Below are positions 39,121 through 61,358 of a stretch of 64,000 nt of DNA, one piece after another. The position numbers were made by a program, and so were the translations under genes. Position 1 is the stretch's first letter. The number at the start of each line of letters is the position of its first letter. The notes under the pieces are model-generated. The model ran no database searches, was not told the origin of the DNA, and worked only from the letters and a program-made list of their open reading frames with translations. The stretch is from Nocardia sp. BSTN01 (GTDB taxonomy: Bacteria; Actinomycetota; Actinomycetes; Mycobacteriales; Mycobacteriaceae): the NCBI RefSeq assembly GCF_015354405.1, contig NZ_JADKYP010000016.1:62001-126000 (forward strand). The letters are read 5' to 3'.

Positions 39121-40275
39121 ATGGCACGTGGCGAGGGCAGGAAAACCAGGCAGACCGGAACGTTCGGCACGGTGCAGAAATTGCCCAGCGGACGTTTCAG
39201 GGCGCTGTACTACGGCCCGGACGGCGACGGCAAGCGGTACAAGGCACCGACCACATTCCTCACCAAGCAGGACGCGCGCGGCTGGCTGGCGATGCAACAG
39301 GCCGACATCATCCGCAAGGTATGGCAGCCGCCGCAGGCACCGGATCGTAAGCGCGTGACCTGCCGCGAGTACGCCGAGCAGTGGCTCAAGCACCGGCCGC
39401 TCAAGACGCGCACCCGCGAGCACTACCGGCGGCTGCTGGACAAGAACATCCTGCCGATGCTGGGAGAGCAGCTGCTGGGTTCGATCACCGCCGACGACAT
39501 CCGTGACTGGCACGCCGTGACCCTGACCGACCGGCCGACCATGCGCAGCCATGCCTACGGGCTAGTGCGGGCCATCCTGGGAAGCGCCGCGAGTGAGGGA
39601 AAGATCGGCGCGAACCCATGCCATATCCGGGGTGCCGGAAGCGCCAAGCGCGTGGTGAAGATTCGCCCCGCCACGTTGCCGGAGCTGGAGACGATCACCG
39701 CCGCGATGCCCGAACGCTATCGGGCGATGGTGCTGCTGGCGGCGTGGTGCGCATTGCGGTTCGGGGAGCTGACCGAGTTGCGGCGCAGCGATATTCGCCT
39801 CGAATCGAAGCAGAAGAAGCGGAAGACGGTGTGGTCCGGGGAGATTCGCCTATATCGCGGGGTGGTGCGCACCGACGACGGGTTCGAGGTCACGACACCG
39901 AAGTCGCAGGCCGGTAGCCGGGACGTGGCCATTCCACCGCATCTGTGCCCGATCGTCGCCGCGCATCTGGACGACCATGTGGGGACCGAGCCCGACGCAC
40001 TCCTGTTTCCGGCGGTGCATGGTCAGCCCCTGGCCCCGGCGACTTTCTACCGCTGGTGGTACCCCGCGCGGGAGGCGGCCGGGCGCGGTGACCTGCGATT
40101 CCATGACCTGAGGCATACGTCGGCGACCCTGGCCGCTGCGACCGGGGCGACGCTGGCCGAGTTGATGAATCGCCTGGGGCACAGCACATCCGCTGCCGCG
40201 CTGCGGTATCAGCACGTAGCCAAAGGGCGGGACGCCGAAATCGCGGCGCTGTTGTCGAAGATCGCCACGAAATAA
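39121..40275 (+). CDS. int: Tyrosine-type site-specific integrase
   Basis: 384 aa. An AP2-like arm-binding N-terminus (GTFGTVQKLPSGRFRALYYG, PTTFLTKQDARGWLAMQ) is followed by a SAM-like core-binding domain (TCREYAEQWLKHRPLKTRT). In the catalytic domain the first Arg is in AWCALRFGELTELRRSDI, HDLRHTSATLAAATG gives His-x-x-Arg, and LGHSTSAAALRYQHV gives His and the nucleophile Tyr. It inserts the element into the tRNA 3' end 150 bp upstream. The architecture is that of mycobacterial prophage/satellite integrases such as phiRv2. It points away from the att site. Confidence 0.95.
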   Translation: MARGEGRKTRQTGTFGTVQKLPSGRFRALYYGPDGDGKRYKAPTTFLTKQDARGWLAMQQADIIRKVWQPPQAPDRKRVTCREYAEQWLKHRPLKTRTREHYRRLLDKNILPMLGEQLLGSITADDIRDWHAVTLTDRPTMRSHAYGLVRAILGSAASEGKIGANPCHIRGAGSAKRVVKIRPATLPELETITAAMPERYRAMVLLAAWCALRFGELTELRRSDIRLESKQKKRKTVWSGEIRLYRGVVRTDDGFEVTTPKSQAGSRDVAIPPHLCPIVAAHLDDHVGTEPDALLFPAVHGQPLAPATFYRWWYPAREAAGRGDLRFHDLRHTSATLAAATGATLAELMNRLGHSTSAAALRYQHVAKGRDAEIAALLSKIATK

Positions 40276-47000: not shown

Positions 47001-47403
47001 CACCGATCAGCTTGAGGAGCCGCTCACCCGTGTCGAGGGCGCGGTACGCGTCGTCATCGGTGAAGGTGCCGTTGTGTGCCCACTGGTTGCGCACCTCGCG
47101 AAGTTCGTTGGCAAATGTCTCGCCGCTGCGGCCGATGGCTTGATTGAACGGGCGCCACCCAGGCTTGAACCCGGTGGTGATGTTGCCTTCGGTCAGGATC
47201 CTGAACTGTACCTGCGGGTCCAGGGCGTCGTACGTCTTCGTCGACGGAGCCCCGTTCTTGCCATCCTTGGCCTGAACGAGCTTGGTCCACGCGGCCCCGA
47301 GTGACGGATCGCCCTGACCAACGACGGTTGAGATGAAGTCGTCGAGTGCCGGCGCAAGTACTTGGAACATGCGGTCGATACGGTCGCGGTTGCTCTGAGC
47401 CAT
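44038..47403 (-). CDS. Swt1-type HEPN plus DUF499 ATPase, anti-phage-associated
   Basis: 1121 aa. Residues ~1-140 form a HEPN-like helical domain with the RNase motif R105-NQWA-H110 (RxxxxH). Residues ~210-900 are the DUF499 P-loop ATPase: Walker A NFGGGKTHS at ~256, Walker B AVILIDEWVAYAR near 365, VFLGTAIPGDVPGNF, FYSGSGKYWYDVQPNITRTA. A proline-rich linker (~985-1015) leads to a small C-terminal domain. DUF499 proteins pair with DUF1156 methylases in defence islands. ATG 47403 is 1 bp after the DUF262 stop. Last gene of the five-gene operon. Confidence 0.9.
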   Translation of the reverse strand: MAQSNRDRIDRMFQVLAPALDDFISTVVGQGDPSLGAAWTKLVQAKDGKNGAPSTKTYDALDPQVQFRILTEGNITTGFKPGWRPFNQAIGRSGETFANELREVRNQWAHNGTFTDDDAYRALDTGERLLKLIGAAKEADEVRGIRHNLRRVTADKDDKKVLKAAVDNPEAAGLRPWREVLQPHDDVATGNFHASEFAADLYKVATGGEVDSDYADPVEFFRRTYLTEGLRDLIGRAVRRLAGDDNASPVINLQTNFGGGKTHSMLSLWHVASGLPVGDFPQETQELLTASGYSATKVNRVAIVGNHFSPSGVTKDDGTHVNTIWGELAWQLGGPEAYAVVAKADHDRTHPGDALHELLAKYAPAVILIDEWVAYARSLVGRDDLAGGTFDDQFTFAQSLTEAAKGTKGVLLAISIPASETGDANDKIAAGNAEEVGGQNGLEALKRLQNVVRRVADQWRPASSDEAYHIVKQRLFKQPDAAALAAIGATARAYVEMYRKFSDDFPRESRDGAYEDRIKRTYPIHPELFDTLYEEWSSLERFQRTRGVLRLMSTVIHALWTGEDQSPLIMPASIPLATANVNSELTQYLQDSWKTIIDADVDGSNSEPARIDKEKPLFGQRALTKRLARTVFFGAAPTIAPGSVHKGIGAQRVFLGTAIPGDVPGNFHSALTQLGDRATYFYSGSGKYWYDVQPNITRTAKDQAERLHKEDVWAEIVRRLQDQGRKRGDFAGVHVCPESNADIPDTDETRLVILHPKVAHKRGTESAAKEFAHTATEHRGSSNRTNRNALVYLAADEARLEELENATRDYLGWTHVLANEADLDLTQNQKNQASQRAAQADKTVTARLLQSFTWVLVPAQPDPGAPFLIKETKVEGQSDALADRVSRRLGNDGDLSTRQAAATIRLAVGKVPQIWKDGHVSLGSLWRLYSQYPYMPRLRDRSVLDAGILDLPMIWQTDAFALAAGYDEDAGRYIGLWTPEDKERAPVATDSLLLVRPDVAEKQRASEPGPVPAPGPGPEPAPGPAPNPQPGPGPTPTPRVDIAWPTRFYGVKTLNPDKIALEFKNVAEEVLAHLRSGENTSVTVRIEIEATDSDGFNESRVRTVSENARTLKFDQSGFEES

Positions 47404-47404
47404 G

Positions 47405-49081
47405 TCAGTTCAGTTCCCATTCCTTATGAAGCACAGCTAACAGGTCCGCTTGTCGGGCCTCGATCACAGCCGGCGTCCACTCACCATGCGTGAGTACTTG
47501 GGTCGTGAGTGCGAAGACGGCGCTGCCGTTCGCGCTGGTGAAGTAGTTCGCCTTCTTCTTGGCGAAGTCGTAGTTCTGCGCCTCACTGTTCTTGGCGCGG
47601 TTGAGTAACACCAGATTGCCGAGTCGGTGCGTCCAGTGCAGGCGTTGTTCGTCGGTGAAGTCCTGCTTCCACCCGCTGCTGCCCTTAGGGTTCTGGGGTA
47701 GGACGTGCTCGACGGTGATCATCTTGTGCTGATAGCTGACGCCGGGCTGCTTGGCGAGCAAGTCGTCCAGCCGGAGGAGAACGTATTTACGCACGGGCGC
47801 AACCAGATACAGGCGGTCAGCTAGGCGGTCCTTCGTCTCGGCCACTTCCTCGGGCGTGAGGTCGAAGGCTGGCGCGGACAGCCCATCGCCCTTCTCAAGC
47901 TGCTTGAGGAGTTCGCCGTACCTGGAGCCTCGCGGCGTCGCGTACACGCGTCGCAGCAGCATGCTCGCTGCTAGGCGCTCGAGCTTGCGGAGGAATTCCG
48001 CCAGGAACGCGGGATCGTTTCCGTGCTCCTTCAGGGCCCACAGCGCCGGTGCCTGCCAGTTGTCGTTGTCGATCTGAATAAGGCGGCGAAGCCAGTTGTT
48101 CACCGGGGACCAGTTCACATCGTCGGGATAGTTCTGGGTCAGTAGGTGTTCGTAAGCATCGGAATACGGGATCAGCACTTCATCGACGAACTCACGTCCC
48201 TTGCCCGGCAGGTACTTACTAAGTACCTGCTCATCGAACTCCTGAAGTAGAACCTTGGTTGCTCGTTCCTTCTTGAAGATCATGCGGACGTGCCCGAATA
48301 GGTTCGCGAAGGCATCGCGGCCGAGGTCGACCTCCTCCTGCTCCCACTTGTCGGCGTACTCGGCGGCGTCCTGGTCGGGTACGTCGCCGATCACCTTGGA
48401 TTTGAAGATGTCTGACGGAGTGAGGTCGAGTCCGCGCGCATTCATGACGCTGAAGATGCGGTGCGCGCTGTTGAGATCAGGAGTGCTCACGACGACCAGG
48501 AAAGTGCGGGTACCGAGCATGGCCGCGAGGCGCTGCCGCTTGTCATCGGACCAGACCGCGAGACGATCGTGCAGCACAGTTGTGTTGTCGCGGATCGCCT
48601 TCTGTGCGTCCGTCTTGAGGTGAGCGTCGTCGAGTGCGACGAGTTTTTCGGTAGCGCCCTCGGCCTGGACTCGGTCGGCGAAGAACTTGGCGTCCCTCTT
48701 CCTCAGCGTCAGCCGCGGCTTCGCCTGAGTGCCGGCAAGGATCTCGCCCGGCTCGACAACCACCTTGGCCAGCTCCGCCGCAAGCTTCGAGTTATCCGTC
48801 AGATCACGAAGCACTGCGAAGAGAATGCTGAGGGTCGTCAGCCGCTGCTGACCGTCGATCACCTCGGCGCGAGGGTCAGATCCCGTCTTGACCAACACGA
48901 TCGACCCCAGGAAGTAGGGCTCGTCGGTGTCACGGACGAGGGCGCCCTCCAAATCGTCCAGCAGTTGGAGAGCCTGCTCCTTGCCCCATGCGTATGGCCG
49001 TTGATAGTCCGGGATCGTAAACTCGTAGTCGCTCGAGAAGATCTTGCGCAGCGGGTACTCGCCTGCGGTGAGGTCCTTCAT
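47405..49081 (-). CDS. DUF262/DUF1524 (GmrSD-type) ParB-like NTPase-HNH nuclease
   Basis: 558 aa. N-terminal DUF262: FTIPDYQRPYAWGKEQALQL, IDGQQRLTTLSILFAVLRDL (DGQQR at 76-80), and FSVMNARGLDLTPSDIFKS. C-terminal DUF1524 HNH nuclease: ITVEHVLPQNPKGSSGW, HRLGNLVLLNRAKNSEAQNY (His, Asn, Lys). The same pair occurs in GmrSD type IV restriction and SspE-like effectors, where NTP-dependent nuclease activity responds to DNA modification. Here it is between a methylase and an ATPase, so it is the likely DNA-cleaving effector. Its ATG overlaps the methylase stop by one base (TAATG). Confidence 0.9.
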   Translation of the reverse strand: MKDLTAGEYPLRKIFSSDYEFTIPDYQRPYAWGKEQALQLLDDLEGALVRDTDEPYFLGSIVLVKTGSDPRAEVIDGQQRLTTLSILFAVLRDLTDNSKLAAELAKVVVEPGEILAGTQAKPRLTLRKRDAKFFADRVQAEGATEKLVALDDAHLKTDAQKAIRDNTTVLHDRLAVWSDDKRQRLAAMLGTRTFLVVVSTPDLNSAHRIFSVMNARGLDLTPSDIFKSKVIGDVPDQDAAEYADKWEQEEVDLGRDAFANLFGHVRMIFKKERATKVLLQEFDEQVLSKYLPGKGREFVDEVLIPYSDAYEHLLTQNYPDDVNWSPVNNWLRRLIQIDNDNWQAPALWALKEHGNDPAFLAEFLRKLERLAASMLLRRVYATPRGSRYGELLKQLEKGDGLSAPAFDLTPEEVAETKDRLADRLYLVAPVRKYVLLRLDDLLAKQPGVSYQHKMITVEHVLPQNPKGSSGWKQDFTDEQRLHWTHRLGNLVLLNRAKNSEAQNYDFAKKKANYFTSANGSAVFALTTQVLTHGEWTPAVIEARQADLLAVLHKEWELN

Positions 49082-51969
49082 TAGTCGTCACCCTCGTCGA
49101 AGTCGAACGCACTCTGATCGGCCGCAGGCTTCTTGACGCTTCTCGCAACCTCGAGGATCTCGGGCCAGCTCGTGACCAGCGTATTGAAGCTCAGTGCGTC
49201 CTTGGTCCAGCCGTTCCCTTCGGCGATGCGGAACAAGAGATGAGCGAGCTCCTTCACAAGGTCCGCGTCGATGGCACCGTCGGGGCGGCTCAGGGCCGCC
49301 TGCAGGAAGTCACCCGCCGGGGCGATGCCATCACGCTCCAGCACCTTAATCAGGTGGTGAAAGGCTTCCCAGTTGCTCGTGTGCACGTCCTTGAGGACGT
49401 CGTAGGTTAACGACAGGTCTGATGGCTTGATGAGCTGGACGTTGCCAGCGCGGCTCGTCAGAATCTCGTCGCGATCCATCGTGTCGACACTCGTATTACG
49501 AGCACGGGCGAGGTTGTCCGCGTCGCCGAACTTGCCAACGCCGTATCCGTGCTGGCGGTACCAAGCGATGGCGAAGCGCGACGTCGAATCGAAATCTCCT
49601 TCTTGCTCATTGAGTACTTGATCGAGAATCTCATTGATACGAGCCAACGCGGACCGCACCGTCATCTTTTTGCCGTCGGGTTCGAGAACCGCGCTGTAGC
49701 GACTGAACACTGCCATGCCTGGACCAATCGCGGCCTGGGGAAGATCGACCGGCGCGATCTGCCCTTGCTCGAGATTGCGAAGCGCGTCCGGGAGTTCAGC
49801 CTGGAGGGCCCCGATGAAGCCACGTCGATCGGTAGTCGACGCGGATTCCGGACGCGGCCGTAGTGATAGCACGATTGACGATGCCAGAGCGTTACTTCCC
49901 GATGCGCGGAATCGGTTACTTAGCTCAGACCGCATGGGCCATGTAGAGGTAATCTCCCATCCCGATCGGATCATTCCCTCTAGCAGCGTTTCCCAGCCAG
50001 TTGATGCGGTTTCGTTGGCTGTCGTGTCACTCTGTTTGAATGCGTAGTACACCGTGATCGGGAACCCCGCCGTCGAGGTTTCTGATTCCACCCCGCGCCG
50101 AACACGGGTGAACACCTGCCGGAACCCTTCTTCAAAGAATTTCTGCGCATTTTCCTTGCCGCCCCAACGATATGGGTTTGCGACCAATTCTTCGGTCTTA
50201 GGTGCCACCATTGTCGAAAACAAGTTGGGGTAAACGGAGCGAAGCATTTGTCGCAACCAGACGTAGAAGTAGTCGCTAAAATCCGAATACGGGATATTGC
50301 TGTAGTACGGCGGGTCTGTGGAAACGACGACGTTCCGATATTCCCGACTAGCGGCGTCAACTTGTTCCGCGACACCTGGCGTCTGCGCAGGCAGCGAATC
50401 GACTGCGTTCGTCAAGAAGTCGATTTGAGATGCGAACCCTCCCGATGAATTTGATAGAAGATTTGCTTCGCAGAAGTCCCAAGTCATCGGTACGCCAAGA
50501 CGACCGAAAGTATTACGTATGCTCTCCCGTGAAGAATCCCAGGATGCGATGGTTGAAGAACGATCGACTGTTCTGCTGACGACGAGCGCGAGATAGCTGG
50601 CTATGGCATCGGCATAAGCTTCCGCGCTTGGTGAATGCTGGATGAAGGCGGCTGGGTCACTTTCGCCCCCTGGTCCGACGCCGCTCGATTGATCGAGGTC
50701 GACGAGGCGTGGCCCGTTGGGTAGCCCCGCTGCGAGTGCATCAGTCAGTACTCGCTCACGAACGGTTTCGACCAGATCCGAGAGCACAACAAGGCCCTGC
50801 AACTGCCTACCGGAGAACAGGTCGGCAACATCCGTCAGGCCGTAGCGGACTACGTTGATGTACCCCGGCCAATCAAAGAGTGCACCTGGCGGAGCCTCTG
50901 CCGGACGTTCCACGGCTGCCGTTTCGACCTGATCACGCGACGGCGGGAGGTATGCGCGCTGACGGCTCCCCTCCGCGACTACAGCGATCAGTTGCTGACT
51001 GAGGCGCCCTCCACGCCCTTCGGACCTGACGTGGTCGAGAGAAACCGCAGTTCTGCAAGCCAGGCACTCGGCCCCGGTGCGGCCCACAGTGCCGTCACCT
51101 TCACCCGTTGGCGCGGTAGCCGGGTCGCGCCCGATGCTGAACTCGACACGCCGCCCGCCTGGTGCTGCGAAGTCGTCGACCACCGTCGGAACGATGTACG
51201 CCTCCTTTCCCTTCTTCTTGCCGAGCCACCAAGAGCGGACCAGTGGCATCTGGATTCCGCAGGCGGGATTGGGGCAGGTGACGGTGCGGGCCCAGATCCA
51301 AGCGATGACGGTTGCCTCGCTGCCATCGGCCAGGGTGGCCTTAGGGTAGAGGTGACCGATGCGTTCCTCGGCGCGGTTGCGCATCCAAGCGCCGTAACGC
51401 CGTACGTCCTCGGTGAGGCCAGTCGTGCGCGGCCAGCCGCCGAGCTGGGAGTCGGCTGCGCCGGGGAACACGGGCGGTCGATGAGCAAACCTCGGCGGAA
51501 TCTCGATGAGCGCCTTGTTGATGAGCACAGCGACGGGATTGAGGTCGCTCGCGCAGGCCTCCAGCCCGAGGCGCTGGGCTTCGAGCGGGATGGTGCCGCC
51601 GCCGGCGAATGGGTCGAGTATCGCGGGCGGGTTGCCGTCGGTTGACTTCAGGATCTCGGCGTGCACCTCGGCGAGGAGCTTCTCGTCGCGCACGTTGTCC
51701 CAGACCACCAGCCTTTCAATGAGCTCATGCAGCCGCTCGCGCTCCGTGCGCTGGGCCTCCTCGGTGGGGAACTCCTCGGGCCGTGCGGACGGGTCGTCCA
51801 CGAGCTGAGCGAACAGCACTGCGCGTGCAGCAGCCAACGGCCGTCGCGCCCACCAGAGGTGGAGCGTCGACGGGTGGCCATGCCTGATCGACTTCTCCCG
51901 CGCCGACTCCTTGTTGATCGCCTCCAGCGGTAGCGCCACCTCGATGAGCTTCCGCTTACGCACGTGCAT
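49081..51969 (-). CDS. DUF1156-family adenine-specific DNA methyltransferase
   Basis: 962 aa. N-terminal DUF1156: VALPLEAINKESAREKSIRH, GHPSTLHLWWARRPLAAARA. SAM motif I ILDPFAGGGTIPLEAQRLGL at ~117; a Cys cluster (TCPNPACG ... ECLACR) suggests a zinc ribbon; catalytic motif IV VVSTDPPYYSNIPYSD near 555 (DPPY, adenine-N6 type). The large size and insertions are usual for this COG1743-type enzyme. It likely marks self DNA for the helicase/nuclease partners. ATG 51969 follows GGAGGAACGAGG. The middle part (49.9-50.7 kb) is visibly AT-richer than the host genes, indicating transfer. Confidence 0.92.
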   Translation of the reverse strand: MHVRKRKLIEVALPLEAINKESAREKSIRHGHPSTLHLWWARRPLAAARAVLFAQLVDDPSARPEEFPTEEAQRTERERLHELIERLVVWDNVRDEKLLAEVHAEILKSTDGNPPAILDPFAGGGTIPLEAQRLGLEACASDLNPVAVLINKALIEIPPRFAHRPPVFPGAADSQLGGWPRTTGLTEDVRRYGAWMRNRAEERIGHLYPKATLADGSEATVIAWIWARTVTCPNPACGIQMPLVRSWWLGKKKGKEAYIVPTVVDDFAAPGGRRVEFSIGRDPATAPTGEGDGTVGRTGAECLACRTAVSLDHVRSEGRGGRLSQQLIAVVAEGSRQRAYLPPSRDQVETAAVERPAEAPPGALFDWPGYINVVRYGLTDVADLFSGRQLQGLVVLSDLVETVRERVLTDALAAGLPNGPRLVDLDQSSGVGPGGESDPAAFIQHSPSAEAYADAIASYLALVVSRTVDRSSTIASWDSSRESIRNTFGRLGVPMTWDFCEANLLSNSSGGFASQIDFLTNAVDSLPAQTPGVAEQVDAASREYRNVVVSTDPPYYSNIPYSDFSDYFYVWLRQMLRSVYPNLFSTMVAPKTEELVANPYRWGGKENAQKFFEEGFRQVFTRVRRGVESETSTAGFPITVYYAFKQSDTTANETASTGWETLLEGMIRSGWEITSTWPMRSELSNRFRASGSNALASSIVLSLRPRPESASTTDRRGFIGALQAELPDALRNLEQGQIAPVDLPQAAIGPGMAVFSRYSAVLEPDGKKMTVRSALARINEILDQVLNEQEGDFDSTSRFAIAWYRQHGYGVGKFGDADNLARARNTSVDTMDRDEILTSRAGNVQLIKPSDLSLTYDVLKDVHTSNWEAFHHLIKVLERDGIAPAGDFLQAALSRPDGAIDADLVKELAHLLFRIAEGNGWTKDALSFNTLVTSWPEILEVARSVKKPAADQSAFDFDEGDD

Positions 51970-52034: not shown

Positions 52035-52568
52035 TCAGACTCTAGTGGGAACACCGACAGGTCCGTGACCCACTGGGACAAGGCTCAGGCGAACTGCCTC
52101 GTCGAACGGAATATTGGGATGTGCGCGATACGTCCAGCGCTGCCAGCGCGAGGGATGCCTTGGCCCATCTCCGAACTGCCAGACGGGAAGCATCAGCGTC
52201 GACAGTTGTCCCTTCAGCCAATCGACCTGAGCACGAAACTGAATGCGCGCCGCCCCGACGGGAGCCGTCGACCCGTAGCCGAGGAGCACTCCGCCCGCAC
52301 TGTTGAGGGCACTGACAATGTCCGGTCGCGCCTCGGCCCAGCCAGAGTCCGCGGTCCCGAGCTGGTTGAGTTCCCCTGTCGCGTGCGACGGCCAGGCGAA
52401 CATGTTGACGATGCGGTAAGCGTCGAAGCCCAGGATCATCGTGGCCAAATCAACACGGCGGGCTGTGCGGCGGCCATCGGTAACCGGCGGATTGCTCAAC
52501 ACCGCAACGAGTGGACCGCGAGCCTGGTCGTCCCGGTCTATCAGAACGGCTGCCTCCCCTTGGCCCAT
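52035..52568 (-). CDS. DUF1643-like protein
   Basis: 177 aa. The stretch GPLVAVLSNPPVTDGRRTAR, RVDLATMILGFDAYRIVNMF, AWPSHATGELNQL resembles DUF1643 (pattern: xxNPSTAD ... R ... G ... NLFA), and GVLLGYGSTAP takes the place of its AWG strand. The consensus NPSTAD is altered to NPPVTD. DUF1643 proteins recur in defence islands with unknown activity. ATG 52568 lies 28 bp inside the end of the helicase gene, so the two are coupled. 65 bp separate it from the methylase start. Confidence 0.65.
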   Translation of the reverse strand: MGQGEAAVLIDRDDQARGPLVAVLSNPPVTDGRRTARRVDLATMILGFDAYRIVNMFAWPSHATGELNQLGTADSGWAEARPDIVSALNSAGGVLLGYGSTAPVGAARIQFRAQVDWLKGQLSTLMLPVWQFGDGPRHPSRWQRWTYRAHPNIPFDEAVRLSLVPVGHGPVGVPTRV

Positions 52569-55500
52569 TGTTTCGCCCAGTCACCCCGGATGCCGGTGGC
52601 CTCGAAGTCGCCGAGATCCGTTGTGGCGAAGGGGTCGTCGAGGTAGCGTACCTCGTCGAACTGGGCGCCGCGCGGATCGACTTTGACCAGCACGAACCGG
52701 TAGCGCGGCACGGCGTTTTTCCCGGTCATAACTTCGTTGTGGGTGACGAAGAAATCCTTGGCGCCCTCGATGCGGGCCTTGACCTCGATCCGGTAGGTGT
52801 CACCGTTGGTGTCGGTCGAGAGGATGTCGAAACCCTTGTTGTTGAAGGCCTGCTCGACCGGTTTGCGCCCCAGCTCGCGCTCGCAGGCCAGGACAAGGTC
52901 GACACCGCGGCGTTCCACCTCCTTTGTCTCCTTGGCGTGGATGGGCGCGGCGGCTGGGATATCGTCTTCCAGCATCCTGATCGGAAGCACCAATGCGGCC
53001 GTCACGATATGCGGAGGCTTCGTCGACATCAGCTGTTGCTGATCAAGTAAAGCGAGACGTTTGCGGAGGCGGGCATCGAGCTCGACCGCCTTGCGGTTGA
53101 GGCTGTCGGAGGATTCCTTGGGTTTCTCACCCTTCTGTTCCTTCTCTGATGCCACGGCGGCGTCGAGCAGGAGGCGTTCGCTCTCGGAGCTGAGCCGCTT
53201 GGTCACCAGGTCACGAACCTTCTCCAGCTCCGCAAGCCGTCGTAGCTGGACCTCGGCGAGGTATTCGGGCAGCTGGTTGGCGATGATCCAGCTCATGGCC
53301 TTGTCTTCGGCATCGCGGAGCCAGGCCAGGCTCCGGGCATCGTCAACGGCCGGGCCGTCGGGTGCGGCCACGCAGTCGAGGTACGGCGCAGGGCCGGCCG
53401 GACTGACGCTGCCGAACTGGTCGACGTAGGCGTAACCGAAGCGACGTGCAACCGACTCGCCAGTGGCGTCTGCGACCTCCTCGACGACACCGACCAGGAG
53501 ATGAGGCTCCTCGAGGGTCGAGGAAACAAGGATCGTGCCCTGGTTGAGGACACCACCGAAGTTGCGGATCGCCTCACCTATGACCGCGTCGTGCAACGGG
53601 TGGCCCGGCGCCAGGAGGTCGGCGCGAGTCAGGTCTCCGGGCTGGACGTGGCTGAGATCGAAGGTAACCCGGTCGTACCTGGTCGCGATCGGCCCGGTGC
53701 CAGCTGAGCGGATGTGTTGCGGGACGTTCGCGATCTCGTAGCGCCCCTTTTCCCGCTTGACGATGCGCCCGCCGAGCCTGGTGAACGCGGCCTTGAACGC
53801 GAGCTCGATGTAGTGCGGCTGCAGCCGACGCGCGCGGGCATCGTCCATCGCGGCCCTCAGCGCGTGGAGGTCGGCGTCGGCGAGGTGCTCGGAGGCCAGC
53901 GCCCGCTCGTCGAGCAGGTCCTTGAGCCCGTCCCCGACAGAGGCGTCGATGACCTCGTGCATCTTGGCCCTCACGTCGGCACGCTCACCGTACTGGATGG
54001 CCTCCAGCAGCAGGTTGCGCAGCGGGATGTCGGTGAAGGCCTCGCCGAGGACGTCGAAGACCTTGCCGCCGTAGGTCTGCCGCATCTGATCGAGCTTCTC
54101 AAGCAGGCGGGTGAAGACCTCGCCCTCACGGGTGTTCGAGGCGACGAGGTTCCAGAGTCGGCAGACCTCCTCCTGGCCGATGCGATGGACGCGGCCGAAT
54201 CGCTGCTCGATGCGGTTCGGGTTCCACGGCAGGTCGTAGTTGACCATCAGGTGCGCGGCCTGAAGGTTGAGGCCTTCACCTGCGGCGTCGGTGGCCAGGA
54301 GGATCTGGCAGTCGCGGTTCTTGGTGAATTCCTCGGTGATCTGGCGTCGCTCGGCGCGGCGGACGCCGCCGTGGATGGCGCGGACGGCGTCGGGCTTGCC
54401 GAGAAGGGAGCTGATCTTGCCCTGGAGGTAGTCGAGGGTGTCGCGGTGCTCAGTGAAGACGATGAACTTCCGCGGCCAGCCGTTGTTGTCGGTGACGAGC
54501 GCGTTGTCTTGGAGGATGTTCGAGAGCTCGGTCCACTTGCGGTCGGTGCCGGCTTCGCGGACCAGTTGTGCGGTCTTGATCAGGTCGCCGAGTTCGACGA
54601 GTTCGGCGTTGAGCTCAGTGACCGTCTGGGCGGCGGTCGCCGCGTCGAGGAGCTCCTCCTCCATCTGCTCCAGCTCCTCGGCGTTGAACTCGTCCTCGTC
54701 AATGTCACTGATGTCGACGGTCGGTTCACTGTCTCGGTAGGTGCCGTTCTGGATCTCAAGCTTCTTGCGCTCCAAGCGCTCGGTGCGTCGGACGAGGCTC
54801 TTGTAGATCGCCTCTGGGCTCGACGCAAGGCGTCGCTGGAGGACGGTGAGAGCGAAGCCGACAGTGTTCTTGCGCTTTCCACCGATACGCTCGGCTCGGT
54901 TCATCCCCTCGCGAACGTAGTGGGTCACGTCCTCGTAGAGCTCGTATTCGAGCGCCGTCAGCTCGTATGGAACCGTCTCTGCGATGCGTTCCGGGAAGAG
55001 CTTCTTGCCCTCAAAGGTCAGGAGATCTTCTTTGACCATGCGTCGCATGATGCCGCTCACATCGACACTGTTCTTCTGCTTGCCTTCGAACCGGTCGCGG
55101 TCGAGCAAGGTCAAGAAGAGTTGGAAGTCCTCCTCCTTGCCCGAGTGAGGGGTCGCAGTCATCAAGAGCAGGTGGCGGGTGATCTGACCGAGGATCTCGC
55201 CGAGCAGGAATCGTTTAGTCTTGCGCAGCTCGCCGCCGAAGTAGTGTGCCCCCATCCGGTGCGCCTCGTCGACAATGATCAGATCCCACTCGGTCTCCTT
55301 GAGCTGGTCCTGCAGTTGCTCGTTGCGGGAGAGCTGGTCCATCCGTGCGATCAGCAGTGGGTTGGTCTCGAAGACGTTGAAGTTCGCTTGGGCATCGATG
55401 AGCTGGTTGGTCAGAAGGTCGAACCGGAGCCCGAACTTGAAGAAGAGCTCGTCCTGCCACTGCTCGACCAGTCCGCCGGGAGCGATGATCAGGCATTGTT

Positions 55501-55951
55501 TGACGTCGTCGCGGAGCAGCAACTCCTTGATATAGAGACCGGCCATGATCGTCTTGCCCGCGCCTGGGTCGTCGGCGAGGAGAAACCGGAGCGGGGTCCG
55601 GGGCAGGAGCTCGCCGTACACCGCGCGGATCTGGTGCGGCAGCGGCTGAACGTCGCTGGTCGCGACGGCCAGCATTGGGTCGAACAATCCGGCGAGCGAG
55701 ATGCGCTGAGCCTCGGCGACGAGCTTGAAGTCGCTGGCCGTCGCGTCGAACGCGCGGCCGCCGCTCTGCGCGATGCTCAGATTGTCCTGGTCCTTTCGGA
55801 ACACAACCTGCTGGCCAAGCCCACCCGAGGCGTTCTTATAGGTGAGCTCAAGTGCATCCGTGCCGTGCCACTGCGCGGCGATTACGGTGATCACCTCAGA
55901 GGGGATGAGACCGTCGATCCGTAGACCGGCCTTCAGCTCTTCAAGCCGCAC
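52541..55951 (-). CDS. SNF2-type helicase with C-terminal DUF3883 (DrmD-like)
   Basis: 1136 aa. Superfamily 2 motifs: DDPGAGKTIMAGLYIKEL (I, ~127), IIVDEAHRMGAHYFGGE (II), LLMTATPHSGKEEDF (III), FIVFTEHRDTLDYLQ (IV), ILLATDAAGEGLNLQAA (V), IEQRFGRVHRIGQEEV (VI). The C-terminal ~100 residues are DUF3883, a PD-(D/E)xK-like fold with NNKGFDILSTDTNGDTYRIE and VKAR. It probably translocates on invading DNA. I choose GTG 55951 with a perfect AGGAGG at 7 nt. It heads the operon and diverges from the zinc-finger gene. Confidence 0.92.
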   Translation of the reverse strand: MRLEELKAGLRIDGLIPSEVITVIAAQWHGTDALELTYKNASGGLGQQVVFRKDQDNLSIAQSGGRAFDATASDFKLVAEAQRISLAGLFDPMLAVATSDVQPLPHQIRAVYGELLPRTPLRFLLADDPGAGKTIMAGLYIKELLLRDDVKQCLIIAPGGLVEQWQDELFFKFGLRFDLLTNQLIDAQANFNVFETNPLLIARMDQLSRNEQLQDQLKETEWDLIIVDEAHRMGAHYFGGELRKTKRFLLGEILGQITRHLLLMTATPHSGKEEDFQLFLTLLDRDRFEGKQKNSVDVSGIMRRMVKEDLLTFEGKKLFPERIAETVPYELTALEYELYEDVTHYVREGMNRAERIGGKRKNTVGFALTVLQRRLASSPEAIYKSLVRRTERLERKKLEIQNGTYRDSEPTVDISDIDEDEFNAEELEQMEEELLDAATAAQTVTELNAELVELGDLIKTAQLVREAGTDRKWTELSNILQDNALVTDNNGWPRKFIVFTEHRDTLDYLQGKISSLLGKPDAVRAIHGGVRRAERRQITEEFTKNRDCQILLATDAAGEGLNLQAAHLMVNYDLPWNPNRIEQRFGRVHRIGQEEVCRLWNLVASNTREGEVFTRLLEKLDQMRQTYGGKVFDVLGEAFTDIPLRNLLLEAIQYGERADVRAKMHEVIDASVGDGLKDLLDERALASEHLADADLHALRAAMDDARARRLQPHYIELAFKAAFTRLGGRIVKREKGRYEIANVPQHIRSAGTGPIATRYDRVTFDLSHVQPGDLTRADLLAPGHPLHDAVIGEAIRNFGGVLNQGTILVSSTLEEPHLLVGVVEEVADATGESVARRFGYAYVDQFGSVSPAGPAPYLDCVAAPDGPAVDDARSLAWLRDAEDKAMSWIIANQLPEYLAEVQLRRLAELEKVRDLVTKRLSSESERLLLDAAVASEKEQKGEKPKESSDSLNRKAVELDARLRKRLALLDQQQLMSTKPPHIVTAALVLPIRMLEDDIPAAAPIHAKETKEVERRGVDLVLACERELGRKPVEQAFNNKGFDILSTDTNGDTYRIEVKARIEGAKDFFVTHNEVMTGKNAVPRYRFVLVKVDPRGAQFDEVRYLDDPFATTDLGDFEATGIRGDWAKQWAKGRQPF

Positions 55952-56464
55952 GAATGAACCTCCTGATGGACAGCCCACGAATATTACTCGAGACCGCCGA
56001 CAGCTTTTGCCACCCCGCCGTATCCGTCTGCAGCCCTTACTAATTTCCTCAGCAGAACGTCACTGAGGTGCAGGCGTTCGCGCTCAGATCCAGCTTGGCC
56101 GACACTGTGGCCGCCAGCAAGCAACAGGATCACCGCCCGTGAGAACCTCCGGCCTCAACGCTTCCGCGGATCCGGCACCCAGCCAGCGCCCGCAGCAATC
56201 ACTCCGGAGTCATCCTGACCGCACCGCTGTGCCTCGGCTTCCCGGCCGGATCTGTTCCCGGTTCGACACGGGCAGCAATAGCAGGCGATGATGACAACAT
56301 CGGCACGGCAACGACTTTCGACGATCAGGTGTGGAACCATGATCATCACGAAGCTGATGCCGTGCCCGCGCCAGTGACACACCCCGAATCCGCAGGTCGG
56401 CCACTCAATTAACGGCCTTGCCAGAGCCCAGGAACCGAAGAGGGACCGAAGGGAGACAACCACA
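55952..56464. other. 513-bp divergent control region between two defence-type operons
   Basis: Contains no convincing gene. It must hold the promoters for the helicase operon (leftward) and the zinc-finger/Hsp70 cassette (rightward). CCTCAG ... CTGAGG (56047-56068) forms a short inverted repeat that could be an operator. No regulator gene sits in or beside the gap. Confidence 0.5.
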
Positions 56465-57580
56465 TTGGCACATTGGTCTACCGGGTTCATGGACTTCCAC
56501 GAGGAGATCTACGCCCCACCACCGGGCCCGCCGGAACCGCCGCGCATCAACTGCCTCGAATGCGAGGGTGTGTTCACCACCTCGGATGCGCTACACGAGC
56601 ATGTCTTCACCAGCCATCCGATCGCCAGCCCGGTTCTGCTTCACCGTGGCGTAGTGTGCGGCAGCGCCACGCTGTTGGTTCAGCGAGCTACCAAACCTGC
56701 GGATTGGTCTGTGGTCAACTGTGATTGGACGCGCGTCGACGAGGTGGTGGTCCCACCGGAGCGCCTCGGTGAACACCTTTCCAGGGAAAGCGGTTTCGTC
56801 AAGGTCGAGATCGGCAACATGCGCACGAACACGACCTACAAGTTCGACTTCGCGATTGCGGCCGAGCAGGACCTCATAGGTGTCGACAACGTTTTGGAGC
56901 AGTTGCTCGACAAGGTTGAGAAAGTCGCGGAGTTCGAGATCACGCCGAAATCGATCAGCAGCGACTTCCTCGACCGAACCGCTCCCTTCGACACCGCACG
57001 CAAGTACGCTGAGGGGATCGCGGAGTACCTGTATTGGCTCGCGCACCGCAGGGCCGGGGGCGCATCGGATGTCGCTCTCGATCGTGAGAAGCTGAACCGG
57101 TCCGCAGAGCTGCTTCGGCACATGCACCGGCCCGTCGCCCTCGCGGTGACGAGCCTGATCTCCCTATATCACAATCATTTTGAAGAAGCGGCGGACAGAG
57201 CGCTGAGTCGAGGGCTGCACGCCGTCGCAGCGCGCCTCGCCCGAATGTTGACAGCGGGAGCGCAGCCGGTGGATCCGGGACGGATCGTCCATGACCTCGC
57301 GGACCTTGAGCGACGGCTGATCGACAAGAGGACCCAGGCCCTGATCGACTTGTGCCGCCTGCCGATCGATGCCTCCGCGACCGACGACGTGGCTGGTTTC
57401 GACCATATTTACGTCGCCACAGAGTCTTACGACCGTACAAAAGCACATCTGTTTATCGCCGAATACCATCTCGCAACCGGCACCCCCTACACCGAACGAC
57501 TCATCCGGGCTGCTGGGCAGAATGGTGTTCCCGAACACTGGGTGGAATCCCGCCTCAATCTCATCGGCGACGAAGGATAG
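56465..57580 (+). CDS. C2H2 zinc-finger protein, first gene of the Hsp70 cassette
   Basis: 371 aa, family not recognised. Residues 30-51 are a classic C2H2 finger (C30-x2-C33-x12-H46-x4-H51), rare in bacteria. Residues ~55-135 look like a small beta-rich domain (GVVCGSATLLVQRATKPADW, VKVEIGNMRTNTTYKFDF). From ~140 on it is mostly helical, e.g. LLRHMHRPVALAVTSLISLY and HFEEAADRALSRGLHAVAAR, perhaps TPR-like. The start may be TTG 56465, with GGGAG upstream, or ATG 56489. The next gene starts 3 bp after the stop. It may recognise nucleic acid or a partner protein; this is inference. Confidence 0.75.
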   Translation: MAHWSTGFMDFHEEIYAPPPGPPEPPRINCLECEGVFTTSDALHEHVFTSHPIASPVLLHRGVVCGSATLLVQRATKPADWSVVNCDWTRVDEVVVPPERLGEHLSRESGFVKVEIGNMRTNTTYKFDFAIAAEQDLIGVDNVLEQLLDKVEKVAEFEITPKSISSDFLDRTAPFDTARKYAEGIAEYLYWLAHRRAGGASDVALDREKLNRSAELLRHMHRPVALAVTSLISLYHNHFEEAADRALSRGLHAVAARLARMLTAGAQPVDPGRIVHDLADLERRLIDKRTQALIDLCRLPIDASATDDVAGFDHIYVATESYDRTKAHLFIAEYHLATGTPYTERLIRAAGQNGVPEHWVESRLNLIGDEG

Positions 57581-57582
57581 AT

Positions 57583-59589
57583 GTGACAGACGACAGCTGC
57601 GATCAGGGTGTTCGACAACGTGGGCACAGCTGGAACAGTGCGGCAGACCCCGGTCGACGGAAAGGCTCGAGTCGACGATCCCAGCGACAGGCTCGGGACA
57701 GTGCCGACTCGCCCCGACGGACCAACGGTCGCTCTGCCGGACGAATGACAGACGACCAGAACGACGATGCCCGGATCGAACAGGCTCGACCGGAAACTCG
57801 GCAGATCCAAGATGATGGCGGAAAACATCCTTTCGTAAAAGGATCCACTCGACTGCGCGGCCGCGCGAAAAGGGCGCAGGCCGGAAAATTCATATCGCGT
57901 AGCTCCGAGCAAGCCCCACGAGACGGCGCGACCTATCCCGCTCCGCGCGGCGACGACATGCGCCGCCGGCAACAAGATGGCTTCGCCCGCAACGCCCGTC
58001 GCCACAAAGATGGTTCCACGCGTGCCGGCCACCGAACTCCGAGACGCTCGCAGAGGGACGCTGTACAGCAGTCATTCCGCAGCGAAAACGCGCCTCGACG
58101 CAATAGCCAGGTCCAGAAAGCAGAGCCGAAGCGGACGATGACGGAGGTAGCGCCCACCATGCCCGACGCTCCTACCAGCGAACCCATCCGGAACGACAAA
58201 GCCGCGCAAGTAGTTCCTCCGCCAGAGCTTGCCGCTGCTGCTGAACCATCGAGTTCTCCCGACCAAGCAAAGGCGGGACCGGACAGCGAGATTCCCCCCA
58301 TGACAGCCGAACTCCCGGCGGGCGACAGCCAGACATCACCCACCCGTCCCGATGAAGAAGCAAACGAGGCAGCGGCAGAGGTCGCCGCTCCTCCAACGGC
58401 TGTCTCCTCGCCGGATCGGGAAGCCGGAGAGGCCGACATCGAAGGCGAACCTCGGGCCGAGACCCAGGTCGAGGTCGAGGACGAGGCAGGAGCTCGACCG
58501 GGCGACCGGCCGAAGCGCACGACTGTCGAGCACGTCCGCTCGTTCGCGGATTTCCTCCGGTTTCTGGTTGAACTCGAGGGAGAGCTCAAAACGCTCCCTC
58601 TCGAAAAGAATTCCCCTGCGCGGAAGGCGCTGTGGGCGTCGGTCGACTTCGACAATTTCGCGGATGTGATCGCCCGCATCGCGGAGCGCGATTTCAAACT
58701 ATCCACCAGTGTCACCTTGCTGGTCTCGGCCGACAAGTTCGGGCTCGCTGGGAACGCGCGCCGGAACATCAATGAACTCGCCACGCGCATCGTGCTCGGG
58801 CACCGCTTGTTCCATACCGATGACACGCTGTGCGAGTCGCTATATCGGTTACTCAGCGGCGATCCGGACGAGGAAGCGCTGTCGCGTGCGCTCGGCCGAG
58901 CTCAGTACCTGATCAAGCACGCGATCGACGTCGAGCGCAACCGCAAGCCGGTGCCCAAGGCCAAGATCGCCGCCATGGCGGCTCTCGCCGAAAACGCGGC
59001 TCAAGCGGTGGTGCTGATCGCCGCATCCGCGGCGGACTGGAACGTCGCGCGGTGTGTCGAGATCTTCGCGGACAAGCTCTGGGGCGCCGGCGGCCCTGTT
59101 CCGGAATCCGCGGCAGCACGCGAAAAACTGGCCACGCTGTCGAAATCCGCACGCGTAACAGCAGCCCTCATTGTCGATTCCACGCGCAATCGACTGCGAT
59201 CGGCGGAATCCGAGCGAGATCACGCGCGCACGCAGATGCAGGTAGCGCAGAACCAGTGCCGGCGATTGTCCCAAGAACTCGCTGCCGCTCGCGCGCGCAG
59301 CACCGAAATCGAGTCGGAGCTGAATAGCCGGATTGCTGCGCTCCAGCAGGAATCCGATGCTCGCCGCAAGGAACGTATGCTTGTGACATCGGATTTCAAG
59401 AGGGTGAGAGTCGATACCGCCCGGGTCATCGGACAACAGGTCGAATCGCTCGAAGACGCGCTCGGTGCCCTCGAAAACGGAGACACCGACGTGACCGACG
59501 AGTTTGTCAGGCACTCGATCAAACATCTGAAACGTAGTTTGTCAGCACTTCGGTCGGCTGCCGAAGAAGATTTGCAGGGGAAAGCATGA
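57583..59589 (+). CDS. Disordered/coiled-coil protein coupled to the Hsp70-like ATPase
   Basis: 668 aa, unknown family. Residues 1-180 are low-complexity and basic with many Arg/Gln (RRSQRQARDS, RRRQQDGFARNARRH). Residues ~180-305 are Pro/Ala/Glu rich and acidic. Residues ~311-530 form a helical domain starting KRTTVEHVRSFADFLRFLVE and including RAQYLIKHAIDVERNRKPVP. Residues ~535-600 are a strong coiled coil (LRSAESERDHARTQMQVAQN), ending in a helical tail. The layout resembles a GrpE-like dimeric partner of Hsp70, but no homology is visible. GTG 57583 has GAAGGA at 5 nt; ATG 57745 is an alternative. The stop overlaps the Hsp70 start (ATGA). Confidence 0.75.
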   Translation: MTDDSCDQGVRQRGHSWNSAADPGRRKGSSRRSQRQARDSADSPRRTNGRSAGRMTDDQNDDARIEQARPETRQIQDDGGKHPFVKGSTRLRGRAKRAQAGKFISRSSEQAPRDGATYPAPRGDDMRRRQQDGFARNARRHKDGSTRAGHRTPRRSQRDAVQQSFRSENAPRRNSQVQKAEPKRTMTEVAPTMPDAPTSEPIRNDKAAQVVPPPELAAAAEPSSSPDQAKAGPDSEIPPMTAELPAGDSQTSPTRPDEEANEAAAEVAAPPTAVSSPDREAGEADIEGEPRAETQVEVEDEAGARPGDRPKRTTVEHVRSFADFLRFLVELEGELKTLPLEKNSPARKALWASVDFDNFADVIARIAERDFKLSTSVTLLVSADKFGLAGNARRNINELATRIVLGHRLFHTDDTLCESLYRLLSGDPDEEALSRALGRAQYLIKHAIDVERNRKPVPKAKIAAMAALAENAAQAVVLIAASAADWNVARCVEIFADKLWGAGGPVPESAAAREKLATLSKSARVTAALIVDSTRNRLRSAESERDHARTQMQVAQNQCRRLSQELAAARARSTEIESELNSRIAALQQESDARRKERMLVTSDFKRVRVDTARVIGQQVESLEDALGALENGDTDVTDEFVRHSIKHLKRSLSALRSAAEEDLQGKA

Positions 59590-61358
59590 CCGTCGTAGGT
59601 TTCGACTTCGGCACCACAAATAGTCTTGTCTCGGTCGTCATCGGCGACAACCGTGCGGAGAATCTTGTCGATGAAACGGGTCGGCCGGTGCCGTCGATCG
59701 TCAAATACGAGGGGCTCCGGAAAGTGGTCGGGCAGGCCGCCAAGGATGAGCTCGACGCCACCGATCTCGGCATCCACGGCAGTTTCGTGAAATCTCCGAA
59801 AACCTACCTCGGTAAAGAGACGATGACCGTCGAAGGGGTCGAGCGCAGTCCGATCGATGTCACCCACGACGTCATCGAGCATGTGCGGAAATGCGCGCTC
59901 GCAGTGGCGGAGAAGGAAAATTACCTTTCCGAAATCACCGAGGCTGTGGCCACCATTCCCGTCAATATGAACGGCCGCCAGCGCCGCGATCTGCGGGATG
60001 CCTACAATCGCAGCGGAATTCGTGTGGTCCAGTTCGTCCACGAACCTTTCGCTGCACTGTACGGACACTTCCGGCCCCGTATGGGCACCGATTTCGCGCA
60101 CCGTTTCGATCGCAAGAACATTCTGGTCGTGGACTGGGGTGGCGGCACCCTGGACCTCACCTTGTGCCGACTGGACAGCGGCCGCGTCGTCCAGTTGCAG
60201 AATGCCGGCACAAGCGACCTCGGCGGCGATCATTTCGACGCGGCGCTCCGTAATTGGATTGTCGGGCGGGTTGTCAATGATCCGTCCGTGATCGGCTGGG
60301 ACAGACGTCGGCAGCTTCGTCACAAATGCGAGCAATTGAAGATCAAACTGTCCGAAGTCGAACGAGCGACCCTCTACATCAACAACTTCCACACGGAGAG
60401 CGGCGAGCCGCTCAAACAGGTGGTGACACGTGACGATTTGGAGAGTATCGCGAAGCCGATGATCGATCGTGCGATGGACTCCATCACGGCCCTGCTCGAT
60501 GCGGCCCATCTCAGCGGCTCACAGGTCTCCATGTGCCTGGTTACCGGTGGCATGTCGCAGATGCCGGCGATCGTGTCCCGACTCCGCGAACTCTTCGGCC
60601 ATCGGGTCGAAGTGTCTTCGAACAGTGCGACTTTGGTAGCCCAGGGTGCGGCGTGGATCGCGCACGACCGGCAGCAGTTGGAGCTGGCGAAGGATATCGA
60701 GGTCCGTATTGCCCGCGGCTCCTACTTCCCGCTGCTCAAGGCGGGTACGAGGGTGCCCTTCGAAGGTCAGGAGCTGGTGGACGACAAGTTGAACCTGTAT
60801 TGCGCGGATCCGCGCGACGGCCACGCGAAGTTCCAGTTCTGCACACCCACCCGCCCCGGGACCGATATCCCGCGGACCGATCCACGTGACGAGTTCGGCG
60901 CTCTCCGCCTTAACGTCGATCGCCGAGCGCAACGGCTCTTCGAACGCCTCACCCTCACCACGAAGCTGGACGCCGACGGCGTCGTGCACATCGCGGCGAT
61001 GTCCCAGCTGAACGGGCATCGCGCGAGCACGGCCTTGTACGACTTGCAGTTCGGGATCTCGCTCGGATCGGTGAAGTCGGACGGAGGCGTCGCCGCCGAT
61101 CCCGACCCGCCGACACCAGCGGCGGAAGCACTGCACGAAATCGGCAGTGTCGTCCTGCGCTCGAATATCGCCGACAAGAAGGACGAATCCTACGTACCGG
61201 GCGATCTGGAATTGCTGTCCAAGCAGTCGGGCTACTTCGATCGGCGGTACGGTAAGGCGTCCCAGATGCAGATCGAAGAACGCCTCTACTACCAGCCGTG
61301 TGCACGTTGCAAGCGAATGGTCAACGACCCCGAGTGCCGCTGCGGCTCCCGTCGCTGA
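59586..61358 (+). CDS. Hsp70-like (DnaK-type) ATPase with C-terminal zinc ribbon
   Basis: 590 aa. The actin/Hsp70 ATPase core is complete: phosphate-1 VGFDFGTTNSLVSVV at 4-18, AVATIPVNMNGRQRRDLRDA (connect 1), phosphate-2 VVDWGGGTLDLTL near 182, DLGGDHFDAALRNWI, and adenosine motif CLVTGGMSQMPAIVSRLREL near 317. The substrate-binding part is short and divergent (residues ~375-500), with no helical lid or EEVD-type end. The last ~20 residues hold CARCKRMVNDPECRCG, a zinc ribbon. It is not housekeeping DnaK: no grpE or dnaJ nearby. Third gene of the cassette. Confidence 0.88.
   Translation: MTVVGFDFGTTNSLVSVVIGDNRAENLVDETGRPVPSIVKYEGLRKVVGQAAKDELDATDLGIHGSFVKSPKTYLGKETMTVEGVERSPIDVTHDVIEHVRKCALAVAEKENYLSEITEAVATIPVNMNGRQRRDLRDAYNRSGIRVVQFVHEPFAALYGHFRPRMGTDFAHRFDRKNILVVDWGGGTLDLTLCRLDSGRVVQLQNAGTSDLGGDHFDAALRNWIVGRVVNDPSVIGWDRRRQLRHKCEQLKIKLSEVERATLYINNFHTESGEPLKQVVTRDDLESIAKPMIDRAMDSITALLDAAHLSGSQVSMCLVTGGMSQMPAIVSRLRELFGHRVEVSSNSATLVAQGAAWIAHDRQQLELAKDIEVRIARGSYFPLLKAGTRVPFEGQELVDDKLNLYCADPRDGHAKFQFCTPTRPGTDIPRTDPRDEFGALRLNVDRRAQRLFERLTLTTKLDADGVVHIAAMSQLNGHRASTALYDLQFGISLGSVKSDGGVAADPDPPTPAAEALHEIGSVVLRSNIADKKDESYVPGDLELLSKQSGYFDRRYGKASQMQIEERLYYQPCARCKRMVNDPECRCGSRR

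Follow-up and report, generated by a model that had tools for sequence, protein, structure and literature searches.

A zinc finger, coiled-coil and Hsp70 gene cassette conserved across bacterial phyla and often located beside defence systems: a possible dedicated chaperone machine

The 64,000-nucleotide (nt) stretch of Nocardia sp. BSTN01 analysed here (contig NZ_JADKYP010000016.1, positions 62,001 to 126,000 of the forward strand; hereafter the window) carries a cassette of three genes, all open on the plus strand, which encode a C2H2 zinc finger protein (ZF), a coiled-coil protein (CC) and an Hsp70-like ATPase. The ZF gene (56465-57580) begins with TTG and encodes 371 amino acids (aa), with the finger at residues 30-51, a beta-rich domain at approximately 57-129 and a TPR-like helical domain at approximately 134-368. 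It is followed by the CC open frame as first listed (57583-59589, plus strand, GTG start, 668 aa), of which the first 192 codons are doubtful, and by the Hsp70-like gene (59586-61358), whose 590-aa product is predicted to comprise a complete ATPase domain, a beta substrate-binding domain and a C-terminal four-Cys tail. The ZF-CC gap of 2 nt and the CC-Hsp70 overlap of 4 nt (ATGA) are as described in an earlier note on this DNA, and over 10 tabulated loci the corresponding distances range from -8 to +50 nt and from -17 to +3 nt, respectively. ZF and CC of the window have no significant family in Pfam, NCBIfam or PADLOC, and the PADLOC-DB defence models gave no match for one of the three proteins and only marginal matches (4.9e-4, 7.4e-4) for the other two. 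Pfam, PADLOC and NCBIfam scans of the three proteins revealed no effector domain such as a nuclease or toxin, and no J domain was found in the window proteins.

The three-gene unit is conserved as one block across several phyla. Searches performed with the Hsp70 alone yielded, with the window counted, 15 distinct loci, which belong to Actinomycetota, Pseudomonadota or Acidobacteriota or lie on IMG/VR contigs. They are the window, N. beijingensis (L004), Nocardia AG03 (L005=L010=L012), N. aurantiaca (L006), genomes G135 (L009=L011) and G403 (L015=L024), the Paenarthrobacter plasmid pA (L014), an Aquabacterium metagenome-assembled genome (MAG; L007), G771 from the same phylum as the latter (L035), a Bryobacterales MAG (L008) and the IMG/VR loci L066-L070; a matching copy on a second Paenarthrobacter plasmid (strain AT5) was excluded from this count. 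CC lies directly upstream of Hsp70 in all 15 loci, and ZF is present in each of the 14 with DNA at that position, being split by an IS3 element in L014 and cut by the contig end in L069. Since CC varies more than ZF (relatives share 13-46 % identity with the window copy) and was at first partly placed by position, both partners were confirmed with profiles rebuilt after removal of the clade to which the tested locus belongs. With these profiles CC was the best match in every locus (E-values between 3e-36 and 2.6e-6, L068 and L070 giving the weakest), as was ZF (E 1.7e-90 to 1.6e-26, best piece). The pairwise identities of ZF and Hsp70 are closely correlated (r=0.98, 66 pairs from 12 loci), L008, L014 and L069 having been left out because they contain no whole ZF. 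When 299 genomes were searched with a ZF profile, two matched, both also with Hsp70 and both with a ZF that is itself a row of that profile; no ZF without Hsp70 turned up among those genomes.

By sequence comparison, the third protein is a member of the Hsp70 superfamily. It matches Pfam HSP70 at 2.4e-50, and the PDB matches of its profile to DnaK extend down to 2.5e-53. Seven ATPase positions (T11, T12, E171, D194, G196, T199 and D201, numbered as in E. coli DnaK) are retained by all 15 Hsp70s, and the K72 column is invariant in 10 aligned rows; the complete ATPase core claimed in the earlier note was thus borne out, and the intact residues likewise support its description of the cassette as chaperone-powered. 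Alignment to solved DnaK structures covers the profile up to position 490 in the best match and to no more than position 532 (of 591) in any of the 60 matches listed, so that a full alpha-helical lid appears to be unmatched; the remainder of the protein ends in the four-Cys tail. This tail has the form CxxC...CxC in 12 of the 15 proteins, while L068 and L069 carry other four-Cys tails and the L070 frame (L070:5989-7455, 488 aa) ends early without the pattern. The four-Cys tail probably represents the terminal zinc ribbon that had been proposed. The window Hsp70 falls below the curated NCBIfam cut-offs of HscA (155.8 bits vs 708.55) and DnaK (150.3 vs 648), and a tree from which L023 and L021 were left out separated the 15 cassette Hsp70s from two DnaKs by a 100/100 branch. 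The genome that carries the window (G000, 7.79 Mb) has a single cassette Hsp70, its two other matches being weak (3.4e-6, 5.8e-4). GrpE was not found in this genome, in contrast to 39 of 41 genomes that were positive in the same search, nor was a strong DnaK match; these absences perhaps reflect an assembly gap.

The finger of ZF follows the pattern C-x2-C-x12-H-x4-H in the window, its four ligands are invariant in 12/12 aligned ZF sequences (window included), and the ZF profile has a zinc-finger match in PDB (3.6e-8) over profile positions 28-56. The protein thus shows the C2H2 ligand arrangement C-x2-C-x12-H-x3-5-H, as had been claimed for the first gene, and is predicted to bind zinc. The TTG start is backed by a motif at the N terminus that most relatives retain. 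An AlphaFold2 model (mean predicted local distance difference test score 84.6) contains the finger, a beta domain and TPR-like helices, the last of which also appeared TPR-like in a VIA-align comparison. ZF may serve as the recognition module of the cassette, as the earlier note proposed.

The extent of CC differs from that first listed. A Shine-Dalgarno site (GGAGG) and the ATG at 58159 lie within a 46-nt block that is 87 % identical to N. beijingensis, the same GGAGG site is retained upstream of CC in Nocardia AG03, and the CC frame measures 337-477 aa in ten relatives outside the closest ones. In the close relatives L004, L005 and L011, the region ahead of the CC ATG encodes, in another frame, a C-terminal ZF extension of approximately 200 aa. 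The 192 codons preceding ATG 58159 in the window showed no similarity to that extension above shuffled controls in any frame, and decay of such an extension in the window was rejected on the same grounds. The 668-aa start was rejected because the GGAGG site and ATG 58159 fall in a conserved stretch and the 192 earlier codons resemble the ZF extension of relatives no more than shuffled controls do. CC therefore probably extends over 58159-59589 (plus strand, approximately 476 aa), with a predicted acidic linker, a helical domain, a long helix and an antiparallel C-terminal helix. The earlier note had described a 668-aa protein with basic and acidic disordered parts and a coiled coil; given the conserved ATG and the dissimilar region upstream of it, that length and the basic part are doubtful, while the acidic stretch, which spans roughly residues 210-310 of the longer frame, is kept in the shorter version. 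In L004:5954-6553, L005:5894-6529 and L011:9933-10562, neither the ZF extension nor the CC frame is interrupted by a stop codon for approximately 600 nt, which represents possible dual coding or a chance overlap.

The structural model of CC contains one long helix (fragment residues 210-320) and a helical hairpin, and no beta strand. GrpE is likewise built around a long helix that ends in a hairpin, and has a beta wing in addition. In a PDB profile search, GrpE chains scored E=0.1 and 0.15 alongside other coiled-coil proteins, hhalign comparisons with GrpE gave probabilities of 6.4 % (reversed control 5.7 %) and 20.4 % (without a reversed control), and the score of the C-terminal part was surpassed by 1 of 30 column permutations. 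No GrpE row was listed when the model was compared by VIA-align, an absence that excludes nothing. The predicted helix arrangement of CC is thus GrpE-like, yet without significant GrpE similarity, and the protein may act as an exchange factor or co-chaperone.

In the window, the cassette is preceded by a divergent set of minus-strand genes that form an Hma system, which has been regrouped as a DUF499-centred system related to bacteriophage exclusion (BREX) (PMC12839542). These genes are hmaA (52541-55978), encoding a SNF2-type helicase with helicase and NOV_C domains (PADLOC PDLC00659, E=0); hmaB (49081-51969), a DUF1156 adenine methyltransferase identified by Pfam and PADLOC; and hmaC (44038-47403), a HEPN-DUF499 ATPase. 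Their content corresponds to type 1 in the assignment made here. A GmrSD-type restriction gene (47405-49081, minus strand) is inserted between hmaB and hmaC. A tyrosine integrase gene (39121-40275) and, to the right of the cassette, IS3- and ISL3-type transposase genes provide a mobile context. The restriction-type neighbour reported earlier was recovered as Hma plus GmrSD. The GmrSD protein of the window is 43.6 % identical to that of the Aquabacterium locus (L007:9719-11491) and shares its best PADLOC model, PDLC02686; these two GmrSD genes accompany the cassette in two different systems, Hma and BREX.

Similar surroundings recur among the relatives: in 10 of the 15 loci, the available DNA contains a defence or restriction system, in one case (L005/L012) represented by a candidate gene only. 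Besides the window, these include G135, with Hma homologues (tblastn) and a DUF4011 helicase-nuclease (PADLOC candidate PDC-S37); N. beijingensis, with PDC-S37 directly upstream and the type 2 BREX proteins PglW, PglX, PglY, PglZ, BrxD and BrxHI encoded from approximately 6 kb away; L005/L012, where PDC-S37 is the sole defence sign; N. aurantiaca, with type I restriction-modification (R-M) and GmrSD; the Paenarthrobacter plasmid, with a type IIG enzyme and two DUF262 genes; L068, with McrB and McrC (Pfam); and three type 1 BREX loci. The DUF4011 helicase-nuclease is located directly upstream of the cassette in three loci. Counted outside the ten were L008, L024, L066, L069 (candidate gene PDC-S15) and L070 (RecD-like gene). 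The earlier note had named Hsp70 homologues occurring mostly without the two partners and outside mobile elements as the outcome that would speak against it, and the result favoured the note (CC 15/15, ZF 14/14, defence neighbour 10/15).

Type 1 BREX was identified by PADLOC in L007 and L035 (BrxL of L035 not being PADLOC-identified) and in L067/L077 by PglX, PglZ and BrxL, which are 40-92 % identical to those of the L007/L035 loci, and by BrxC (81 %); PglZ of L067 gave no Pfam family. In all three operons the cassette is inserted between pglX and pglZ, which are named adjacently in the core list brxA, brxB, brxC, pglX, pglZ, brxL (PMC8565348). In L077, ZF starts 2 nt past the pglX stop codon and Hsp70 overlaps pglZ by 4 nt, and this coupling on both sides suggests a joint function; in L007 a GmrSD gene lies between Hsp70 and pglZ. 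The possibility that BrxS and BrxT of pEFER are cassette genes was rejected, these being a putative IS3 transposase and a hypothetical upstream gene, respectively (PMC8565348). Inside the L035 operon, between brxC and pglX, lies a gene of 570 aa (L035:14156-15868) that appears AlbA/Schlafen-like by eye.

This BREX-internal position in three operons, together with the separate branch from DnaK and the constant presence of two partners outside the known chaperones, renders it highly improbable that the Hsp70 is an ordinary stress chaperone carried on a mobile element by chance, even though Hsp70s are widespread and 16 phage records contain distant Hsp70 genes at 22-29 % identity. The cassette genes travel jointly between distant bacteria and are often located beside or inside anti-virus systems, which suggests that some of these systems possess a chaperone machine of their own. 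The reading that we favour, with somewhat less than even confidence, is that the cassette is a mobile three-protein Hsp70 machine serving DNA-modification-based defence, in which ZF would be the adaptor, CC the partner or exchange factor and Hsp70 the motor. ZF, CC and Hsp70 would form a dedicated machine for the neighbouring defence systems, ZF recruiting a client (a phage protein or a subunit of the defence complex) via its TPR-like domain and finger, as a J-protein or TPR co-chaperone would. The C-terminal helical hairpin of CC would dock onto the ATPase domain, with CC acting both as a scaffold and, in the manner of GrpE, as an exchange factor, and Hsp70 would hydrolyse ATP to hold or remodel the client. 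The outcome could be the assembly, activation or rescue of a neighbouring restriction complex (BREX, Hma, GmrSD or R-M) blocked by phage proteins; for the window, Hma and GmrSD would be the system served.

One alternative, which is possible and less probable, is that the cassette constitutes a stand-alone antiphage system that senses phage proteins or altered folding and stops infection alone; its presence in islands with other systems would then be incidental, as for BrxU in a BREX island. The variation of partners between loci (BREX types 1 and 2, Hma, McrBC, R-M and the DUF4011 helicase) is consistent with this explanation, as are the reports that BrxU protects alone from inside a BREX locus (PMC8565348) and that bNACHT25 senses phage infection in a DnaJ/DnaK-dependent manner (PMC12169576). 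However, the lack of effector domains in the window proteins and the coupling of the L077 cassette to both pglX and pglZ argue against it. A dedicated folding or assembly factor for large neighbours such as PglX, HmaB and the 2000-aa helicases, without a sensing role, seems unlikely. Several neighbour proteins do measure 900-2000 aa, the ATPase residues are intact and the alignment spans the beta substrate-binding domain; on the other hand, the type 1 BREX of pEFER (brxR, S, T, A, B, C, U, pglX, pglZ, brxL), described without such genes in the available text, protects against phages (PMC8565348), and simple folding would need neither a conserved finger nor a changing set of partners.

A further alternative arises from the Coiled-coil Nuclease Tandems (CoCoNuTs), of which type III, similarly to the cassette, joins an Hsp70-like protein, coiled coils and zinc ribbons in the vicinity of BREX or R-M (PMC11090510). 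The cassette might then be an RNA-directed module comparable to CnuD, the Hsp70 part of that type, and the McrB/McrC pair adjoining the L068 cassette would fit such a role. In that locus (L068:339-3661, on an IMG/VR contig), McrB, with a long N-terminal part that is EVE-like by eye, and McrC lie directly upstream of a divergent cassette. CoCoNuTs are, however, characterized by an NxD-motif McrB GTPase with McrC, and their CnuD has degenerate Walker A-like ATPase motifs and HEAT-like repeats (PMC11090510), whereas the cassette has intact ATPase residues in 15/15 Hsp70s and a ZF and CC pair. CoCoNuT membership was rejected, as the only McrB seen, that of L068, carries an NxxD motif (MNIADRS) rather than NxD and no McrB was found among the scanned part of the other loci's neighbours; the RNA-directed explanation is very unlikely.

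Other described systems share parts of the proposed logic. GAP1-N2 GTPase-centric conflict operons of actinobacteria and firmicutes encode HSP70, the exchange factor GrpE and an FNIII protein with a DnaJ or TPR fusion (Kaur et al. 2020, PMC7159879). All three roles proposed for the cassette are thus represented, but these operons are centred on a GTPase and contain a recognizable GrpE, in contrast to the C2H2 finger of the cassette and a CC without a significant GrpE match. A GTPase motif scan (P-loop and [NT]KxD) of heuristically called genes in nine loci and the window end, in which the GAP1-N2 profile was not run, found only two BrxL and one AAA_25. The BREX accessory genes BrxU, PARIS and the OLD modules resemble the cassette as extra defence genes within or next to the BREX core and differ from it in being nucleases or OLD-ATPase modules (PMC8565348, PMC12839542); the words Hsp70, chaperone and DnaK have 0 occurrences in the available text of PMC12839542. 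With the DnaK-DnaJ-GrpE machine the cassette shares the Hsp70 ATPase and beta substrate domains and a modelled GrpE-like long helix and hairpin, while it differs in the four-Cys tail, the unmatched full lid, the J domain not found in the window proteins and a CC-GrpE relation that is not significant. No description of the ZF-CC-Hsp70 set was found in searches of one open-access library (PMC), subscription papers, preprints from elsewhere and supplements lying outside this scope. The earlier statement that no described system has this set stands to that extent and has to be qualified by these precedents in logic, as the nearest published kin, the GAP1-N2 HSP70-GrpE operons and the CoCoNuTs, are, in the available parts of PMC7159879 and PMC11090510, not described with this gene set.

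The mode by which BREX blocks phages is a long-standing question, to which accessory genes offer clues, and there is a real chance that the cassette represents a new functional component of BREX. A module coupled to pglX and pglZ that also occurs with Hma, McrBC and R-M would, if the proposal is true, indicate that these defences have a step of ATP-driven protein remodelling in common. It would also be a case in which an Hsp70 reserved for immunity, together with an adaptor and a partner of its own, arose in bacteria. The roles of chaperones in eukaryotic immune receptors provide a parallel. In the fullest version of the favoured reading, a phylum-crossing Hsp70 machine not described before (ZF-TPR adaptor, GrpE-like coiled-coil protein and zinc-ribbon Hsp70) would be a functional part of immunity by BREX and its relatives. 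It would recognize phage inhibitors or restriction complexes that have stalled, remodel them at the expense of ATP, and be the first dedicated Hsp70 machine known to drive phage defence based on DNA modification; this version is possible, though less likely than not. The three families are small enough to be cloned and tested jointly.

The cassette is of low prevalence, being present in 3 of 301 genomes of the family and 2 of 396 of the phylum (own genome included in both), in 2/398 and 1/247 genomes in the phyla of two relatives, and in 1/180 in the family of G403 (centre genome included in these three counts). These surveys used cut-offs of 1e-60 or 1e-70, and housekeeping-type Hsp70s (7e-33 to 8e-31) were not counted. 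The scan of viral contigs (IMG/VR) gave nothing with the window Hsp70 and five loci with Hsp70 query A3, and five further single-protein scans yielded no additional contigs. The Aquabacterium cassette had no megablast match in E. coli genomes, the L068 Hsp70 had no match in phages at 1e-45, and among the plasmids searched only the two Paenarthrobacter records carry the cassette. A fourth gene follows Hsp70 in two loci (L014:11769-13109 and L024:7865-9196, 45 % identical); Pfam and PADLOC gave no match for the copy in L014, and tblastn of 19 cassette-locus sequences returned only these two. In N. beijingensis, a decayed remnant of the C-terminal end of a second Hsp70 (L026:10575-10838) lies approximately 10 kb upstream of the intact cassette.

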